From Cloacibacterium caeni (GTDB lineage: Bacteria > Bacteroidota > Bacteroidia > Flavobacteriales > Weeksellaceae), in NCBI RefSeq assembly GCF_907163125.1, contig NZ_OU015319.1:1116001-1180000 (forward strand): 64,000 nucleotides of DNA. Direction: 5' to 3'. Position 1 is the first letter of the stretch. The number at the start of each line of letters is the position of its first letter. The translations under genes and the position numbers were made by a program. Positions 9,362 to 19,227 of the stretch are shown piece by piece. The notes below the pieces were generated by a model, which worked only from the letters and a program-made list of their open reading frames with translations, searched no databases and had not been told where the DNA came from.

Positions 9362-10588
9362 TTAATTCTCAACCCTTACCATTCTCCCCAGCAACAATTC
9401 CTTCAACTCCTCTAGTTTTTGGTTTTCTTCTATTTTGTTTAAAATTAAATCAAATGTTGATTCTAATAACAAATTGAAATCATTGATGTTTTTTTCTTTT
9501 GGTAAAACTATTTTAATATTTTCTATTTGTGAATTACTAATATTTGCTTGTGCACTATCTCCACCAACATTACTAATTTCTTTTTGAACAATGTCATCTA
9601 ATAAAACTAAATAAAGAAATGGAACTTTATTTAACGGTTTCTCCCCTAAATTAAACATACCTACACGTTGATTTACTAATGTGTATTTACCTAAATTTGG
9701 AACGATTCCAATTTTACCAATAGTTGCACCAGTCATTGCAATAACAATATCTCCTTTTTGTATTGTATAATTTCTAGCATTTACTAATACTTTTGAATCT
9801 ACAAAATCTAAAGCATTAAAATCTATTGTATTATTTGAGATGCTACCAATTTTAATTACAGGGATTCCTTCTAACTTCCACAAGTCACTTTTAAAAGCAA
9901 AACCAGATTTTACTTTTGAATAATCACCAATTTTTCCAACTTCCCACCCCTCCGGAATTTCCTTCTCCAACTCCTCACACCAAACCATTTTACCGCCATT
10001 GCTTTTATAAGGCTTACCGTTTTCATCGGGAAACTCAAAATCTACAAACCACTGTTTATAAATCGTTTGTGCGGTTTCTTCTAATTTGGCAATTAGTTGG
10101 TTGTTCAGGTTAATACGGTTTTGTATGGTGTGGTATTCGTTTACCATTTCCTGTTGCTTTTCTAGGGAAGGAATGGGGAGCATAACCTCGCTCATTTCTT
10201 GCCAATCAAAGATTTCTCTAGCACTTCCGTGAGATTTGTAACGTGCATATCTATCAAATTCAGGTCTGCGAAACCACATCATTAAATATTCGGGTAATAA
10301 TAGATTATTGGTTTCAAAAACTACATAAGCTTGGGATAATAACGCTTTTTCTTCATTAGATAAAGCAATAGAAATTTTATCTCCATTTCTAGAAGTTACT
10401 GGTCCGTAAGCAAACTGATTTTTTTTGATAATTTTATACGTTGACATATCTGTTCCCACAGTATTAGCAATAGAAATAATCATTTCTTTTTTAATACTCA
10501 CACCCAACAAAGGATATTGTTTCAAATCTTTGTTTCGGATGTTTACTTCTTGTATATAATCGCCTAATCTTTTATAATTGGATTGCAT
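9362..10588 (-). CDS. hsdS: Type I restriction enzyme specificity subunit HsdS
   Basis: This 408-residue protein has two target-recognition domains, residues ~1-150 and ~210-365, each followed by a conserved helical spacer. The spacers are QQEMVNEYHTIQNRINLNNQ with AQTIYKQWFVDF at ~145-190, and IEENQKLEELKELLLGRMV at the C-terminus. The two domains would each read one half of a bipartite site. The start overlaps the hsdM stop by 17 bp, the usual coupled arrangement. The second recognition domain is visibly more AT-rich at DNA level than the first and the spacer, which suggests domain exchange. Recognition sequence cannot be predicted. Confidence 0.95.
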   Translation of the reverse strand: MQSNYKRLGDYIQEVNIRNKDLKQYPLLGVSIKKEMIISIANTVGTDMSTYKIIKKNQFAYGPVTSRNGDKISIALSNEEKALLSQAYVVFETNNLLLPEYLMMWFRRPEFDRYARYKSHGSAREIFDWQEMSEVMLPIPSLEKQQEMVNEYHTIQNRINLNNQLIAKLEETAQTIYKQWFVDFEFPDENGKPYKSNGGKMVWCEELEKEIPEGWEVGKIGDYSKVKSGFAFKSDLWKLEGIPVIKIGSISNNTIDFNALDFVDSKVLVNARNYTIQKGDIVIAMTGATIGKIGIVPNLGKYTLVNQRVGMFNLGEKPLNKVPFLYLVLLDDIVQKEISNVGGDSAQANISNSQIENIKIVLPKEKNINDFNLLLESTFDLILNKIEENQKLEELKELLLGRMVRVEN

Positions 10589-12167
10589 AACCTAACTCCT
10601 TAAAAACATTCAACAAATCTTTTTTAGATTGGGCTTCTTCTTGCAATAATTGGGTAATATCCTGTTGCAAAGCCTTCATTTTATCCTCATAATCTATCTG
10701 CTCATCTCGGTTTACAAAAGCAATGTACTTACTCGGCACCAGAGAATAATCTTTGGCTTTCACTTCTTCTTTGGTCGCACTGTAACAGAACTCTGGGATA
10801 TCTTCATAACCTTTCAGCTTGTTTTCAGACGTTGTCTCATCCTGTCGAAGGCACTGCCAAGTGTGATACGTTCCTGCAATTTCTCTAATTTCGTCCTCAG
10901 AAAATTGGGTGTATTTTTTCTCAAAAGGAATTCCTTTTTGTCTTAAATCCAAGAACAATATTTCATTTTCACGGTTTCGGTATTGTCGCACTTCATCAGG
11001 CAATTGTACCGTTTTTTCTTTTTTGTTTTTATTGAGAATCCAAAGCGTTACACTAATATCTGTTGTATAAAACATATTTCTCGGTAAAATCACAATGGCT
11101 TCTATCAAATCATTTTCTATCAGTTTTTTACGGATTTCGTATTCGGTTCCACCACCACTCAAAGCGCCATTGGCCAAGATAAAACCAGCCACTCCGTTTT
11201 CAGAAAGTTTGGCTACCATATTCAGAATCCAAGCATAATTGGCATTGCTGGTTGGAGGTACATCATAACCTTTCCATCGGGCATCGTCCACCAATTCATC
11301 GGCTGCTCGCCAATCTTTTTGGTTAAAAGGTGGGTTCGCCATGATGAAGTCGGCTTTCAAATCGGGATGTTGGTCTTTGCCAAAAGTATCTGCTGGTACA
11401 TCTCCCAAATTGGCGGCAATTCCTCTAATCGCCAAATTCATTTTCGCCAGTTTATAGGTGGTAGCTGTATATTCTTGTCCGTAGATAGAGACTTCCTTTT
11501 TATTACCGTGATGGCTTTCTATAAATTTAATAGACTGCACAAACATCCCACCACTTCCACAAGCTGGATCATAGATTATACCTTTGTAAGGTTCTATCAT
11601 TTCGGCAATCAGGTTTACAATACTTTTAGGGGTGTAGAACTCTCCTTTTCCTTTACCTTCGGCAAGGGCAAATTTGCTCAAAAAATATTCGTAAACTCTT
11701 CCTACTATGTCTTGTTGCTTATCTTGTAAGGTATTGATATTGTTAATGGTATCCAGCAAAGCTGCCAATTTGCTCACATCCATATTCAGACGAGAAAAAT
11801 AATTGTCTGGAAGCGCCCCTTTCAGCGCAGGGTTGTTTTTTTCTATGGTGTGGAGAGCGGTGTCTATTTTTAGGGCAATGTCTGCCTGTTTAGAATGTTC
11901 GATAATGGTGCTCCATCTTGCTTCTTCTGGCAAATAAAAGATGTTCTGCATATTGTAGAACTCTTTCATTTCTATAAATTTCTCTTTGCCTTCTGCAATA
12001 AGTTCCGCTCTACGCTCTTCAAATTTATCACTCGCAAATTTTAAGAAAATCAGTCCCAATACTACGTGTTTGTATTCAGAAGATTCTACCGTACCTCTCA
12101 ATTTATTGGCAGAATCCCAAAGCGTTTCTTCTATGGATTTAGTTTTTACAGTGCTTTTCTTAGCCAT
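10572..12167 (-). CDS. hsdM: Type I DNA adenine methyltransferase subunit HsdM
   Basis: HsdM provides S-adenosylmethionine-dependent N6-adenine methylation for the type I complex. With the start at ATG 12165-12167 (MAKKSTVKT) it is 531 residues. The N-terminal helical domain is followed by motif I DPACGSGG at ~200-207 and motif IV NPPF at ~278-281. The open frame extends to 12206, but that lies within the promoter (TATATTTG at 12195-12202), so the downstream ATG is chosen. Near residue 440 the stretch QCLRQDETTSENKLK between TYHTW and GYEDIPEFC looks like an insertion. Its DNA resembles the REP palindromes found elsewhere in the window. Confidence 0.96.
   Translation of the reverse strand: MAKKSTVKTKSIEETLWDSANKLRGTVESSEYKHVVLGLIFLKFASDKFEERRAELIAEGKEKFIEMKEFYNMQNIFYLPEEARWSTIIEHSKQADIALKIDTALHTIEKNNPALKGALPDNYFSRLNMDVSKLAALLDTINNINTLQDKQQDIVGRVYEYFLSKFALAEGKGKGEFYTPKSIVNLIAEMIEPYKGIIYDPACGSGGMFVQSIKFIESHHGNKKEVSIYGQEYTATTYKLAKMNLAIRGIAANLGDVPADTFGKDQHPDLKADFIMANPPFNQKDWRAADELVDDARWKGYDVPPTSNANYAWILNMVAKLSENGVAGFILANGALSGGGTEYEIRKKLIENDLIEAIVILPRNMFYTTDISVTLWILNKNKKEKTVQLPDEVRQYRNRENEILFLDLRQKGIPFEKKYTQFSEDEIREIAGTYHTWQCLRQDETTSENKLKGYEDIPEFCYSATKEEVKAKDYSLVPSKYIAFVNRDEQIDYEDKMKALQQDITQLLQEEAQSKKDLLNVFKELGYAIQL
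10831..10854. repeat. REP-like sequence inside the hsdM reading frame
   Basis: The plus-strand segment ends in CCTGTCGAAGGCAC, 14 bases identical to the end of the REP copy at 13080-13103. The preceding 10 bases match it at six positions. It encodes part of an apparent 12-15 residue insertion (CLRQDETT) in HsdM, in frame, between conserved segments. Confidence 0.5.
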
Positions 12168-12194
12168 TAGTTTCCTATACTTTATTATTTCTCC

Positions 12195-12225
12195 CAAATA
12201 TAACAAAAACCTATCTTTATACCAA
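12195..12225 (-). promoter_or_regulatory. Promoter of the hsdM operon
   Basis: On the minus strand TTG (12223-12225) is followed after exactly 20 bp by TATATTTG (12195-12202), the Bacteroidetes -33/-7 pattern. Transcription would begin near 12188, leaving a leader of about 20 nt before the ATG at 12167. This placement decides the hsdM start. Confidence 0.7.
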
Positions 12226-13736: not shown

Positions 13737-15056
13737 TCAACAAATACCTGAGCCTCCCGAAGGTAACACATTCCTAGACCTTCCCCAAAACATAGAACCC
13801 ACCACCATTAAGAACAGAAGCCCTAAATAATAAGAATGCGAGAGCATATCCACATAATTGATTTTATTTTTACTGTAACCGATAATCAATAAAACCTGAG
13901 CGCCATAAGGAAGTAACCCTTGAACGATACACGCAAAAATATCAATCACAGAAGCCATCTTTCGGGCTGGAACTTCAAAACGTTCAGAAATAGGTCTCAA
14001 CACTTTCCCAGAGATTAGAATCGACACCGTATTATTGGCAATACAGAGATTTACCAAACCTGTAATCAATCCTGCTCCCAATTGCGCAGATTTGGCAGAG
14101 CTAATCTTAGCTTCTATTTTGTTCAATAAATATTGAATTCCCCCTGCTTTTTCTACTAAGGCAGCTAAACCACCTGTAAGCAAAGACAAAAGGAAAATTT
14201 CGGTCATAGAAGTGAAGCCTTCATAACTGGCTTTGGCAAAACTCAACCACGTGAGATTCCCTTGCCACAAACCAATGGCTCCCGCTAAAAATATCCCGAT
14301 GACCAACACCAGAAATACATCTAACCCTAAAAAGGCTAAAACCAAAACCACCAAATAGGGGAAAATAAGTTCCCAAGAAATGGGAGTTGGCGTATAGGCA
14401 ATAGGTGCGACAGGATTGCTAAATCCTATAAAAAGTAAGATGACCACCGTTAATACTACTGCAGGGGCAGCCAAATAAAAATTGGTTCTGAACTTATCTT
14501 TCATGCTGCTGCCCAACGTTTGAGCTGCTGCAATGGTAGTATCAGAAATCACCGAAAGATTGTCGCCAAACATAGCACCACCCAAAAGACTTGCCCCAAT
14601 TAGGTTAAGGTCTGCTCCACTTTTTTGAGCCAACTGTATTGCGATAGGCCCTAATGCGACAATAGCACCAACCGAGGTTCCAGAAGACAAGGAAAGGAAT
14701 GAGGCCAAAAGGAAAATCCCTAGAGCATAATAATCAGCAGAGATATAGGTTAGCCCGATATTCACCACCGCATCTACACTGCCCGAAACTTGTGCTACCG
14801 TAGAAAAAGCGCCTGCCAATAGATAAATAATACACATGGTGAGTACACTGGATTCCCCACAACCGTGTAAGAAAGTTTTTATTTTTTCTTGATGAGGCAA
14901 CCTAGACATGGCAAAGGCGGCAATAATACCGATACTCACGGCAATAGGCGATGGCAAGGCATAAAAATCTTGCAATACAATTCCGGCACCTAAAAATGTA
15001 CCTACGAAAATTAAAAAAGGAAGTAAACTGAGAAAATTTGCTTTTGTATTGTTCAT
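13737..15056 (-). CDS. NhaC-family transporter, likely methionine transporter MetT
   Basis: This 439-residue, strongly hydrophobic protein has about 11-12 membrane segments. NhaC-family hallmarks are visible: SLSSGTSVGAIVALGPIAI at ~122-140 and GDNLSVISDTTIAAA at ~164-178. NhaC-type carriers are Na+-coupled. One branch, MetT, was proposed as a methionine transporter because it is controlled by methionine regulators. Here the leader at 15122-15184 resembles a SAM riboswitch, which favours MetT over a sodium/proton antiporter. The C-terminal residues NVLPSGGSGIC are encoded by DNA resembling the neighbouring REP elements, so the natural C-terminus may have been replaced. Family assignment is strong; substrate is inferred from the leader. 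Confidence 0.85.
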   Translation of the reverse strand: MNNTKANFLSLLPFLIFVGTFLGAGIVLQDFYALPSPIAVSIGIIAAFAMSRLPHQEKIKTFLHGCGESSVLTMCIIYLLAGAFSTVAQVSGSVDAVVNIGLTYISADYYALGIFLLASFLSLSSGTSVGAIVALGPIAIQLAQKSGADLNLIGASLLGGAMFGDNLSVISDTTIAAAQTLGSSMKDKFRTNFYLAAPAVVLTVVILLFIGFSNPVAPIAYTPTPISWELIFPYLVVLVLAFLGLDVFLVLVIGIFLAGAIGLWQGNLTWLSFAKASYEGFTSMTEIFLLSLLTGGLAALVEKAGGIQYLLNKIEAKISSAKSAQLGAGLITGLVNLCIANNTVSILISGKVLRPISERFEVPARKMASVIDIFACIVQGLLPYGAQVLLIIGYSKNKINYVDMLSHSYYLGLLFLMVVGSMFWGRSRNVLPSGGSGIC

Positions 15057-15121
15057 AAAATTTAAAAATTTAACACAGGAACTTTACAAAAGATAGACAA
15101 CATTTTTTCCAAAAAGTTTGG

Positions 15122-15184
15122 CTTATCGCTTTAGCACCTTGCTTGTTGTTGCAGGTTGCTACCTCCCGTAGAGGTTCCTGATAA
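15122..15184 (-). promoter_or_regulatory. Candidate SAM-I/IV-like riboswitch aptamer in the metT leader
   Basis: On the minus strand P1 can form from UUAUC (15180-15184) and GAUAA (15123-15127). A P2 hairpin ACCUC-UACGG-GAGGU follows, then the P3 segment GCAACCUGC ... GCAAGGUGCUAAA. The pair GCAACC/GGUGCUAA together with UUAUC and GAUAAG is the core signature of SAM-I-superfamily riboswitches. This one is compact: P2 is short, without an obvious kink-turn, and there is no P4, as in SAM-I/IV variants. The promoter at 15192-15223 would start the RNA at the P1 5' strand. The ATG is 66 nt downstream. Sequence and fold are seen; ligand is inferred. Confidence 0.6.
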
Positions 15185-15191
15185 TAGGCGG

Positions 15192-15223
15192 CAAAAGTAA
15201 TCATTATCTCCCAACGAACCAAA
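15192..15223 (-). promoter_or_regulatory. Promoter of the metT leader
   Basis: TTTG (15220-15223), 20-bp spacer, TACTTTTG (15192-15199) on the minus strand: an exact Bacteroidetes promoter pattern. Predicted initiation near 15186 places the aptamer at the very 5' end of the RNA. Confidence 0.7.
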
Positions 15224-15382
15224 TACAATCTATCAATCGCCCTCATAGACCATCAACACAGCCTTTTAACTCCCTGATTTCTAAAAATTAAAGAATAAAA
15301 ATTTCCTTTCCCGTTCCCGTTTTTATACCTCAAACTCTTGAAAATATTTAAAGAATCATAATGTTCAAATGCGATATTAAAA

Positions 15383-15430: not shown

Positions 15431-16180
15431 CTAAACCATATCCAACAAATTGACCACATTAAATGCACCATTATTGAGAGGATATAGATTTCCATTTACT
15501 TCTTGTAGATATTCTATTACAAGTAAAAAGTATCGCTGTCCCTGCATAGTGAGAGGGCTTTCAAAACTCAAAACACCATTCAGCGTTGTGCCATAAGTTT
15601 TACCCGTAACTACATTACTTTCATGGGTTTCAAAATTCCCTCCCTCAAATCGGATAACACTTTCAATCAATCGGATATTGAAATCTGTAGCTGCAGCTGG
15701 AAACTTTAAACCTCTACCCAGTACTACATCTGTTAAAGTCAAAGTAGATGCTTCCATATCTAAGGTAAATCCATCAAATAGAACAGAACTCAACGAAGCT
15801 CTTGCATTAAAATCAAAACCTCTCATTACATCTACTCCTCCTTCTGTTCCTATTCCTATAGCAATACTCCTCTCACCTCTATCAGAAACAGTATCATTCC
15901 TTAGAACTTCATACAGTTTAGAAGTCAGTCTTGCCTGCATTTTAGAGTCTTTATACTTCTCTAGTAAATACCCAAAACTATTGCGCATGAGCTTATTAGA
16001 TTTAGCTACTTCGCTAAATTCACTCATGTTTTCACGCGTTCTTGCAAAATTACTGTCATTCATAATTCTGCTTTTTTTCACTCCGCCAGCTCTTCTTACA
16101 AATGTTCCGTCTGCAGTTTTATAGAAAGAAAGACCATCTATTTGTCCTTCTATGGTTATTAAGCCGTTATATTTAGCCAT
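15431..16180 (-). CDS. Conserved protein of unknown function (MAKYNGLITIEGQIDGLSFY type)
   Basis: This 249-residue protein has no signal peptide, membrane segment or known catalytic motif. The N-terminal ~90 residues carry a pattern seen in scattered flavobacterial proteins of unknown function: IEGQIDGLSFYKTADGTFV, a Gly-rich basic turn RRAGGVKK, then RTRENMSEFSEVAKSNK. The C-terminal ~130 residues alternate short beta-strand-like stretches (TLTLTDVVLGRGLKF, IRLIESVIRFEGG), suggesting a beta-rich domain. It is monocistronic with its own terminator and lies between repeat-rich intergenic regions, so it may belong to the accessory genome. No function is proposed. Confidence 0.7.
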   Translation of the reverse strand: MAKYNGLITIEGQIDGLSFYKTADGTFVRRAGGVKKSRIMNDSNFARTRENMSEFSEVAKSNKLMRNSFGYLLEKYKDSKMQARLTSKLYEVLRNDTVSDRGERSIAIGIGTEGGVDVMRGFDFNARASLSSVLFDGFTLDMEASTLTLTDVVLGRGLKFPAAATDFNIRLIESVIRFEGGNFETHESNVVTGKTYGTTLNGVLSFESPLTMQGQRYFLLVIEYLQEVNGNLYPLNNGAFNVVNLLDMV

Positions 16181-17959: not shown

Positions 17960-18838
17960 TTAAATCGTAGCAGAATTAATTCTGTTACGATTTATTTTTT
18001 TCCATTGTTTTAAATGTATTATTTTTTGTTGATGTGCTTGGTTTGGAGTTATCATATTAATTGACATATGTATTCTAAAATTGTTGTATAAAGTTATGGC
18101 TTGTGTAACTTGTTTGTTTAAATTTTGATAGTTTTCAAATATTTCATGTAAACCAAATTCTTCTTTTAAAATTCCATTTACTCTTTCTGCTACTGCATTT
18201 TCATATGGATCGTATTCTTGCGTCATACTAATTAAAATATTGTTTTTCTTTAACAATTCGGTATACTCTTTACTACAATATTGTAAACCTCTATCAGAAT
18301 GGTGAATGAGTTGATTTTTTGTTTCCCTGTTAATCAAAGCCATTTCTAAAGCTTTTACTGTAGTTGAACTCATTAAATTATCTGACAGTTGATAACCAAC
18401 GATTTTCTTGGAACAAGCATCAGTGAGTAAATGCAAATAGTATGTTTTCTCTTTTGTTCGTAAATAAGTTATATCAGCAACCCAAACTTGCTCAGGTCTG
18501 TTAAGTACTAAATTGCTAATTAAATTTGGATAGCGTTTCATCCAATGTCGTGAGTTTGTTGTTTTGTAATATCTTCGAACTTTAGGTACTTGTAAATGTT
18601 CTGCTTTTAAAAAATCTAAGAAATTATCTCGACCAATTGATATATGATGTTTTGTAAATTCATCTTGTAACATTACATAAAGTTTCTTGCCACCTGTTCG
18701 GGGTAATTGCTTACGAATAGTAACGACTAAACTTCGTAATAATTCTGAGTTGTATTTAGGTGTTCTAACGTTTTTCTTTCGCTTGTAAAATGCTTGTTTT
18801 GTGTATCCAAACAGTTCGCATAACTCATAAATAGTCAA
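17960..18838 (-). CDS. IS3-family transposase OrfB (DDE integrase core)
   Basis: The catalytic part of the transposase is about 292 residues. It has an IS3 HTH_21-type N-terminal segment (FYKRKKNVRTPKYN, PRTGGKKLYVMLQDE) and the rve core with the DDE residues in WVADITYL, HSDRGLQYCS and NAVAERVNGILKEEF. The only start in its frame near the beginning is TTG at 18836-18838. The frame is open upstream to the A6G slippery site in orfA (18880-18886), so it is probably made only as an OrfAB fusion by -1 frameshifting. Confidence 0.93.
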   Translation of the reverse strand: MTIYELCELFGYTKQAFYKRKKNVRTPKYNSELLRSLVVTIRKQLPRTGGKKLYVMLQDEFTKHHISIGRDNFLDFLKAEHLQVPKVRRYYKTTNSRHWMKRYPNLISNLVLNRPEQVWVADITYLRTKEKTYYLHLLTDACSKKIVGYQLSDNLMSSTTVKALEMALINRETKNQLIHHSDRGLQYCSKEYTELLKKNNILISMTQEYDPYENAVAERVNGILKEEFGLHEIFENYQNLNKQVTQAITLYNNFRIHMSINMITPNQAHQQKIIHLKQWKKINRNRINSATI

Positions 18839-18852
18839 TGAACTATTTACAT

Positions 18853-19227
18853 TTATTTCTTCGACTGTTTGGAACCAGACTTTTTTACAATATCAATTTT
18901 AAGCTCACGTTCAGCTATTTCAATAAATCGTTTAAATACTTTTAATTCTTCTTCTTTTTTTGCTAATTGAGCTTCTAGCTCTTTTATACGCTGTTGTTGA
19001 GGATCTTTCATAGGACGACCAATAGTTAATTTATCTTCATAGGTAAATTTACCATATTTTTTTAACCATCTTGGTAGACAACTATTGCCTAGAATATTGT
19101 AACGTCTTCGAAGTTCTGCTTTTGTAAATAAACCCCTCTCAAATTCACTTACAACTTGACGTTTAAATGCTTCGCTATAAATTTGTGGGGCAATTGGAAT
19201 TTTTGAAATTTTCTTTTTTGTTGACAT
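18853..19227 (-). CDS. IS3-family OrfA (transposase HTH subunit)
   Basis: This 124-residue protein has an HTH of the IS3 OrfA type (YSEAFKRQVVSEFERGLFTK, RRRYNILGNSCLPRWLKKYG) and a leucine-zipper-like coiled coil (RIKELEAQLAKKEEELKVF) near the C-terminus. Near the end the codons GTA AAA AAG place A_AAA_AAG in the correct phase for -1 slippage into orfB. OrfA alone usually binds the terminal repeats and modulates transposition. Confidence 0.9.
   Translation of the reverse strand: MSTKKKISKIPIAPQIYSEAFKRQVVSEFERGLFTKAELRRRYNILGNSCLPRWLKKYGKFTYEDKLTIGRPMKDPQQQRIKELEAQLAKKEEELKVFKRFIEIAERELKIDIVKKSGSKQSKK
18880..18886 (-). promoter_or_regulatory. Programmed -1 frameshift site (A6G) in the IS3 element
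   Basis: The minus strand reads AAAAAAG with the orfA phase A_AAA_AAG. After a -1 slip the frame stays open without stop (VWFQTVEEINVNSS) into OrfB, whose own frame has no ATG at its start. Confidence 0.75.

Follow-up and report, generated by a model that had tools for sequence, protein, structure and literature searches.

The element at 15098-15184 on the minus strand of the 64-kb stretch of Cloacibacterium caeni DNA analysed here (the window) is almost certainly a SAM-I/IV riboswitch, and it probably represses the gene for a MetT-type methionine transporter at the level of translation, by way of a start-codon switch. When the whole window was searched on both strands with all Rfam families (Infernal), the sole match at cut-off was to the SAM-I/IV riboswitch model RF01725 (15189-15093, minus strand, model positions 1-99 of 99), with 53.5 bits relative to a curated cut-off of 41.1 and an E value of 5.7e-6. 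In the Rfam search, no match to the SAM-I model RF00162 was reported at the leader, and no match to a SAM-IV model was reported for the window; one lower-scoring match from the same clan, its name undisplayed, was omitted from one search.

A sequence-only reading of this DNA had described a UUAUC/GAUAA P1, a short P2 and a GCAACC...GGUGCUAAA core, together with the lack of a P4 and of a P2 kink-turn, and all of this was recovered on the minus strand: J3/1 comprises 5 nt, which is too short for a P4, and P2 has no internal loop. The P1-P2-P3 core and the P2 without internal loop were found both in the RF01725 alignment and in a 35-sequence alignment (see below), and P4 is absent from the Rfam RF01725 consensus structure as well as from the window RNA. 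The same reading had put the whole element at about 63 nt and called it a minimal SAM-I/IV-type aptamer. The SAM-I/IV identity was borne out by the RF01725 match and by covariation, but not the minimal size: the 63 nt correspond to the core, P5 and the 3' strand of PK-2 having been overlooked, and because the element reaches at least 15098 its length is about 87 nt. A minimal 63-nt aptamer was thus discarded, and the aptamer is an ordinary, full-length member of the known SAM-I/IV family (Table 1). An Rfam covariance search and a comparison of homologous leaders, both suggested in that reading as checks, gave a match above cut-off and covariation, respectively, and refuted nothing.

SAM-I riboswitches typically have a P4 and a P2 internal loop or kink-turn; the window RNA has the GCAACC...GGUGC core in common with SAM-I (RF00162), but differs from it in lacking P4 and the P2 internal loop and in having PK-2 and P5. 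With SAM-I/IV (RF01725; excerpted text of PMC2864571, Weinberg et al. 2010) it shares P1, the P3 core, P5, PK-2 and a P2 without internal loop, the last of which is named there as a SAM-I/IV feature, and it differs in the putative start-codon switch located between PK-2 and the AUG. SAM-IV, as described in the excerpted text of PMC6890682, has P5 and PK-2 downstream of P1, as does the window RNA, whereas the P2a/P2b split of SAM-IV is absent from the window RNA, the P2 of which is unsplit. The same excerpt states that SAM-I/IV is without PK-1, and ascribes to it a P4, unlike the Rfam consensus structure.

Table 1. Positions of the promoter, riboswitch, putative expression platform and transporter gene within the window.
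Feature	Position	Strand	Basis
Presumed -33 promoter element TTTG	15220..15223	-	Sequence; promoter consensus
-7 promoter element TACTTTTG	15192..15199	-	Exact; 7 nt upstream of P1
SAM-I/IV aptamer, P1 to PK-2	15098..15184	-	RF01725; Rfam match 15093-15189
P1 5' strand UUAUC	15180..15184	-	RF01725 alignment; nearly invariant, 35 sequences
P2 hairpin ACCUC/GAGGU	15161..15175	-	26 cells changed on both sides, 35 sequences
P3 hairpin with conserved core	15133..15160	-	8 counted pairs, all invariant, 35 sequences
PK-2 5' strand CAACA, P3 loop	15144..15148	-	100% of cells paired, 16 both-side changes
P1 3' strand GAUAA	15123..15127	-	RF01725 alignment; nearly invariant, 35 sequences
P5 hairpin CCAAA-CUU-UUUGG	15109..15121	-	4 pairs counted, 95% of cells paired, 21 both-side changes
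PK-2 3' strand UGUUG	15098..15102	-	Pairs with CAACA of P3 loop; covariation alignment
Putative anti-5' element GUUCCUG	15076..15082	-	Complementary to CAGGAAC 15180-15174 (aptamer 5' side)
Predicted start-codon hairpin	15041..15092	-	CUUUUGU 15092-15086 / ACAAAAG 15047-15041; GUUC 15082-15079 / GAAC 15054-15051
Transporter start codon AUG	15054..15056	-	
NhaC-superfamily transporter, probable MetT, 439 aa	13737..15056	-	PF03553; riboswitch context

Covariation was assessed in an alignment (A2) of 35 of the 42 distinct rows of class A, class A being the SAM-I/IV transporter class and class BC the orphan-gene class. The rows left out were six SAM-I-like ones and L041, which showed no element in the first shuffle test described below and was excluded from class A. 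Out of 941 cells, 98.9% were paired, compared with at most 41% in controls with partners slid by 1-3 columns, and 63 cells were changed on both sides, relative to 17.1 after shuffling (0 of 500). Two of the five covariation measures were no better than shuffling, namely the number of pairs with both-side change (8 versus 6.7; 84 of 500) and further pair types (446 of 500), and P1 and P3 were little informative because they hardly vary. At one pair of PK-2 the types CG, UA and AU occurred 19, 7 and 6 times, while another carried AU, GU and GC (28, 4 and 3, respectively).

The exact TTTG-N20-TACTTTTG promoter of the sequence-only reading was confirmed on the minus strand, TTTG being presumed, by its consensus, to be the -33 element. 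Transcription, which that reading had begun right at P1, probably starts just before it, judging from the position of the -7 element. The pattern TAnnTTTG was present 5-14 nt before P1 in all 16 non-redundant class A leaders, relative to 2 of 128 background windows, and in only 10 of the 30 class BC leaders, relative to 4 of 238.

The product of the transporter gene matched PF03553 (NhaC superfamily) with 84.8 bits (cut-off 23); assignment as an NhaC Na+/H+ antiporter proper (TIGR00931 equivalog) was discarded, the score being 90.4 bits relative to a cut-off of 370. The closest named relative, from Cloacibacterium normanense, is 99% identical, and within the genus the transporter was found in four of seven genomes, with RF01725 in the same four. 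Among 80 homologues on their genome contigs, SAM-I/IV lay directly upstream in 24 (all Flavobacteriia) and SAM-I in 4 (one from Pontibacter and three from Rossellomorea), so that 28 homologues, from several lineages, carried a SAM-riboswitch leader of either class. Neither riboswitch was found upstream at the Rfam cut-off in 52 homologues, a few of which had short upstream flanks; four of these (L129, L136, L154 and L157) are Flavobacteriia by name. At L155, SAM-I was present on the opposite strand, behind the transporter gene. That members of a single transporter family lie behind two different classes of riboswitch, and do so in two phyla, supports regulation by SAM. In the excerpted texts, MetT is an NhaC-superfamily antiporter with S-boxes before its gene that is derepressed on cysteine depletion (PMC2940859), and a predicted methionine permease (PMC4239095). 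The window gene resembles this MetT in superfamily and in having a SAM-riboswitch leader, and the Rossellomorea and Pontibacter homologues, with their SAM-I leaders, correspond to MetT behind S-boxes. The MetT-type target proposed from the sequence is thus in agreement with the PF03553 match, with the 28 homologues behind SAM riboswitches and with the excerpt of PMC2940859. Methionine or a close derivative is likely the substrate; we infer that the aptamer binds SAM and that SAM represses the transporter, and regard both the substrate and the repression as well-founded inferences.

Of 296 genomes from the window's bacterial family, 100 carried RF01725 (96 with a score over the cut-off), as did 34 of the 395 Bacteroidota genomes sampled (30 with such a score); SAM-I/IV is not rare in this family. 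The window's own genome holds one SAM-I/IV and two SAM-I riboswitches, the latter lying upstream of an O-acetylhomoserine lyase-like gene and of a gene with a MetH-like homocysteine methyltransferase domain (names given by reading the sequences). Paired SAM-I/IV aptamers were seen at L018, L015 and L050, approximately 0.6, 1.0 and 2.2 kb apart, respectively, in one genome, with an ORF after each aptamer; the two at L050 lie on opposite strands. In four Flavobacterium genomes (L126, L130, L132 and L134, around 2884-2968), the transporter gene is followed at a short distance by Flavo-1 RNA (RF01705). In the window, a gene encoding 249 aa lies upstream of the riboswitch, likewise on the minus strand (15431-16180), and had no Pfam or NCBIfam match at an E value of 0.01; type I restriction-modification specificity and methylase genes are present at 9362-12206 and an integrase-core (transposase-like) gene, preceded by a small ORF, at 17960-19227, all on the minus strand.

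PK-2 ends 41 nt upstream of the AUG in the window and, at this distance, cannot itself cover the start region. The intervening leader contains the heptamer GUUCCUG. This sequence is complementary to the aptamer 5' side and also forms part of the 5' arm of a hairpin containing the start codon, in which GUUC is matched with GAAC at the AUG. The strands of this hairpin are invariant across four aligned congeners. Leaders of the genus are nearly identical in four genomes; in G070, CUGG in place of CAGG disrupts a single one of the seven anti-5' pairs, and no compensating change accompanies it. In the mechanism proposed, GUUCCUG would pair with CAGGAAC when SAM is scarce, dismantling P1 and P2, and this anti-5' pairing would keep the start region open, so that the transporter would be made. 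With SAM plentiful, the ligand would lock P1, P3 and PK-2 and GUUCCUG would be released; its GUUC would then pair with the AUG-overlapping GAAC, the outer CUUUUGU/ACAAAAG stem would close and initiation would be blocked. A Shine-Dalgarno sequence would be unnecessary because the start codon itself would be trapped, and Bacteroidetes mRNAs are described as being without classical Shine-Dalgarno sequences in the excerpted text of PMC7366714. The proposal resembles the anti-sequestor OFF switches in the excerpt of Barrick and Breaker 2007 (PMC2258182), where the ligand breaks an exclusive pairing and a sequestering hairpin forms, but would differ from them in masking the start-codon context in place of a Shine-Dalgarno sequence and in using the aptamer 5' side as the competing strand. 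Such a start-codon switch, independent of a Shine-Dalgarno sequence, plausibly represents a new variant of expression platform, and with modest confidence we take it to be the main mechanism.

The dual complementarity was evaluated in leaders from many genomes. In the window's family, 94 leaders at RF01725 places were fetched and placed (41 class A, 33 class BC, 12 SAM-I proper and 8 unclassed), the remainder, mostly leaders of genus g20, being left out. Thinning at 88% similarity and removal of leaders lacking a near ORF gave 14 class A, 21 class BC and 6 other leaders for a first test against shuffled leaders, before which the start codon of L018 was reset by hand. For the window leader (represented by L044, identical up to the AUG), the anti-5' complementarity had a z of -3.57 and a p of 0.004 relative to 500 shuffles. 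Overall, p was below 0.05 in 9 of 14 class A, 14 of 21 class BC and 2 of 6 other leaders, and this level was missed in 5, 7 and 4 leaders, respectively. For a second test, leaders from the Bacteroidota survey and from the transporter homologues were added and the sets thinned at 80%, leaving 16 of 42 class A and 30 of 38 class BC leaders; among the survey leaders, L106 and L118 (AUG at least 140 nt away), L099 and L101 (ORF-less) and L094 (neither core motif) were excluded from both classes.

In this second test, each leader with its own partner was compared with partners exchanged among leaders in 10,000 permutations. Own partners were favoured in class A (n = 16; z of -5.9 for anti-5' and -4.5 for anti-start) and in class BC (n = 30; z of -7.7 and -7.1, respectively), with 0 of 10,000 permutations in every case, and the overlap of the anti-5' and anti-start elements was 0.64 in class A and 0.56 in class BC, relative to expected values of 0.40 and 0.37. 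Among the aptamer segments tried as partners (5,000 permutations), solely the 5' side stood out (z of -5.9 in class A and -7.6 in class BC), the P3 segment, the 3' 35 nt and the PK strand giving z values of -1.1 to +0.9. Coding and upstream stand-in controls gave -0.7 to +2.5, except for a class BC upstream stretch at -1.8 (213 of 5,000). The idea had arisen from leaders of the window's own family, and leaders from other families were kept apart as a held-out set, in which anti-5' and anti-start pairing were reached in 4 and 87 of 10,000 permutations, respectively, for class A (n = 9), and in none for class BC (n = 16). The expression platform is a probable new variant, encountered in class A and class BC alike within the set of Bacteroidota leaders compared here.

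Folding calculations gave a more mixed picture. For the window RNA up to +20, the free fold (-31.3 kcal/mol) was the anti-5' fold with the start region open, while the aptamer-enforced fold (-28.6 kcal/mol) contained the start hairpin, an energy gap that SAM together with PK-2 could plausibly pay; the probability of the AUG being unpaired was 0.63 in the former and 0.36 in the latter. Shuffled leaders matched the window at +20 in 0 of 40 cases in one run and in 9 of 300 with slightly different enforced pairs, and the accessibility change in the window was only 0.02-0.07 once 45-60 nt of coding sequence were included. Over the 16 class A leaders, the mean change was 0.093 relative to -0.01 for shuffled leaders (Wilcoxon p = 0.022), a weak effect, with nine leaders changing by at most 0.04 and L131 in the wrong direction; the energy gap over the same leaders had a p of 0.20. 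Start-region folding energy was below p = 0.05 relative to shuffles in 3 of 14 class A, 15 of 21 class BC and 2 of 6 other leaders, and was set aside as sole evidence, class A being little better than shuffles. Equilibrium two-state folding, which took account neither of pseudoknots nor of the order of transcription, was likewise set aside as proof, being supportive for the window to +20, mixed elsewhere and dependent on the length of coding sequence. Since it is a blunt tool here, the complementarity was taken as the stronger evidence.

Other outputs of the aptamer were weighed against the start-codon switch. PK-2 itself could be the output, its SAM-stabilised form blocking ribosome standby or loading at the A-rich GGAAAAAAUG, with the downstream hairpins incidental. 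In the solved SAM-I/IV representative PK-2 reportedly belongs to the regulatory switch; in the covariation alignment its cells are 100% paired, and the A-rich GGAA..AA stretch before its 3' strand hardly varies among class A leaders. Against this, 41 nt separate PK-2 and the AUG in the window, the corresponding distance measured from where the Rfam match ends is 36-74 nt across the 16 class A leaders, and the dual complementarity of the leader would be left unexplained, which makes this explanation unlikely. Of 55 distinct class A leaders, 50 have an AUG in the 3' strand of PK-2 (AUGUUG); it opens a short ORF (13 codons in the window) and could make the switch depend on an upstream ORF: closure of PK-2 by SAM would halt its translation and, with it, that of the transporter through coupling. 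In 27 of the 50 leaders this frame ends within -20 to +5 relative to the gene start, a figure given without a chance expectation. The frame, length and peptide are variable, however, two of the frames read straight into the gene, and many class BC leaders have no AUG there by eye, although some do (for example, L038 and L056). The other 5 of the 55 leaders carry ACG, matched by a G in the loop, so it is the pairing rather than the AUG that is kept. With neither frame nor peptide conserved, the upstream ORF was set back to a rival explanation, and an improbable one.

Control by transcription termination, Rho-dependent or at an unrecognised terminator, or by RNA stability could operate in place of translational control, and is known for other SAM riboswitches. 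At L094, in a distant Bacteroidota genome, the SAM-I/IV aptamer before a metK-like gene is followed, by eye, by a terminator-like hairpin and T-run, so that the platform at that locus is possibly transcriptional. No terminator-like site was found in 14950-15350 of the window (0.3 expected), and an intrinsic terminator was discarded; an AU-rich leader whose hairpin contains the start codon also speaks against it, and we see little chance of control at this level. That the aptamer is a degenerate or inert relic without regulatory role is scarcely credible, given a full-length match well above cut-off, a PK-2 maintained by compensatory change across genera and the same position before related transporters at 24 of 80 loci.

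The genes behind other SAM-I/IV aptamers include an orphan family of 80-95 aa, mostly in class BC (core CCAACCGAG), at L009, L010, L015, L019, L028, L062, L110 and L119, with the motif 'LSDQELxxxFNxEVGNxGWxxARxxFLxAL' (alignment A3). Relatives were seen at L055, L068, L208 (5973-6215) and L210 (4972-5223), and L211 holds the L009 gene. No Pfam match above cut-off was obtained for the four members scanned (L009, L010, L062 and L068), and an AlphaFold model of the family (three helices and a hairpin; pLDDT 90, confident) had no PDB match at an E value of 0.001. These genes possibly constitute a SAM-responsive set of unnamed proteins. A second orphan group of approximately 200 aa (MSQNISEL and relatives, by eye) follows SAM-I/IV at L046, L048, L049, L053, L063-L066 and L069; its leaders have the 5' strand GUAUUUCGA, and in those folded the start codon lies in a hairpin (for example, AUACAAUAA...UUAUUGUAUG). 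In genus g20 (L016-L017, L020-L024, L027, L029-L031 and L086-L093) a class A leader precedes a 41-42 aa ORF and, further downstream where the locus is long enough, a long ORF that is TonB-dependent receptor-like by its N-terminus.

Among the matches listed from the openly licensed literature (titles and abstract openings), no description was found of a SAM-I/IV expression platform in Bacteroidota, nor of a start codon competing with an aptamer 5' strand for one element, a combination likewise absent from the excerpted texts. The chances are about even that classes A and BC of the Bacteroidota SAM-I/IV riboswitches share one translational platform, in which a single element would have the aptamer 5' side and the start-codon context as its partners, the start codon would compete with P1 and SAM would decide, the class BC arm serving a SAM-responsive set of unnamed proteins. 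If true, the start-codon switch would offer a concrete, testable answer to how translational riboswitching works in a phylum without Shine-Dalgarno sequences, and within one genome methionine uptake, through SAM-I/IV, and methionine synthesis, through SAM-I, would be tied to the same signal by different RNA classes.
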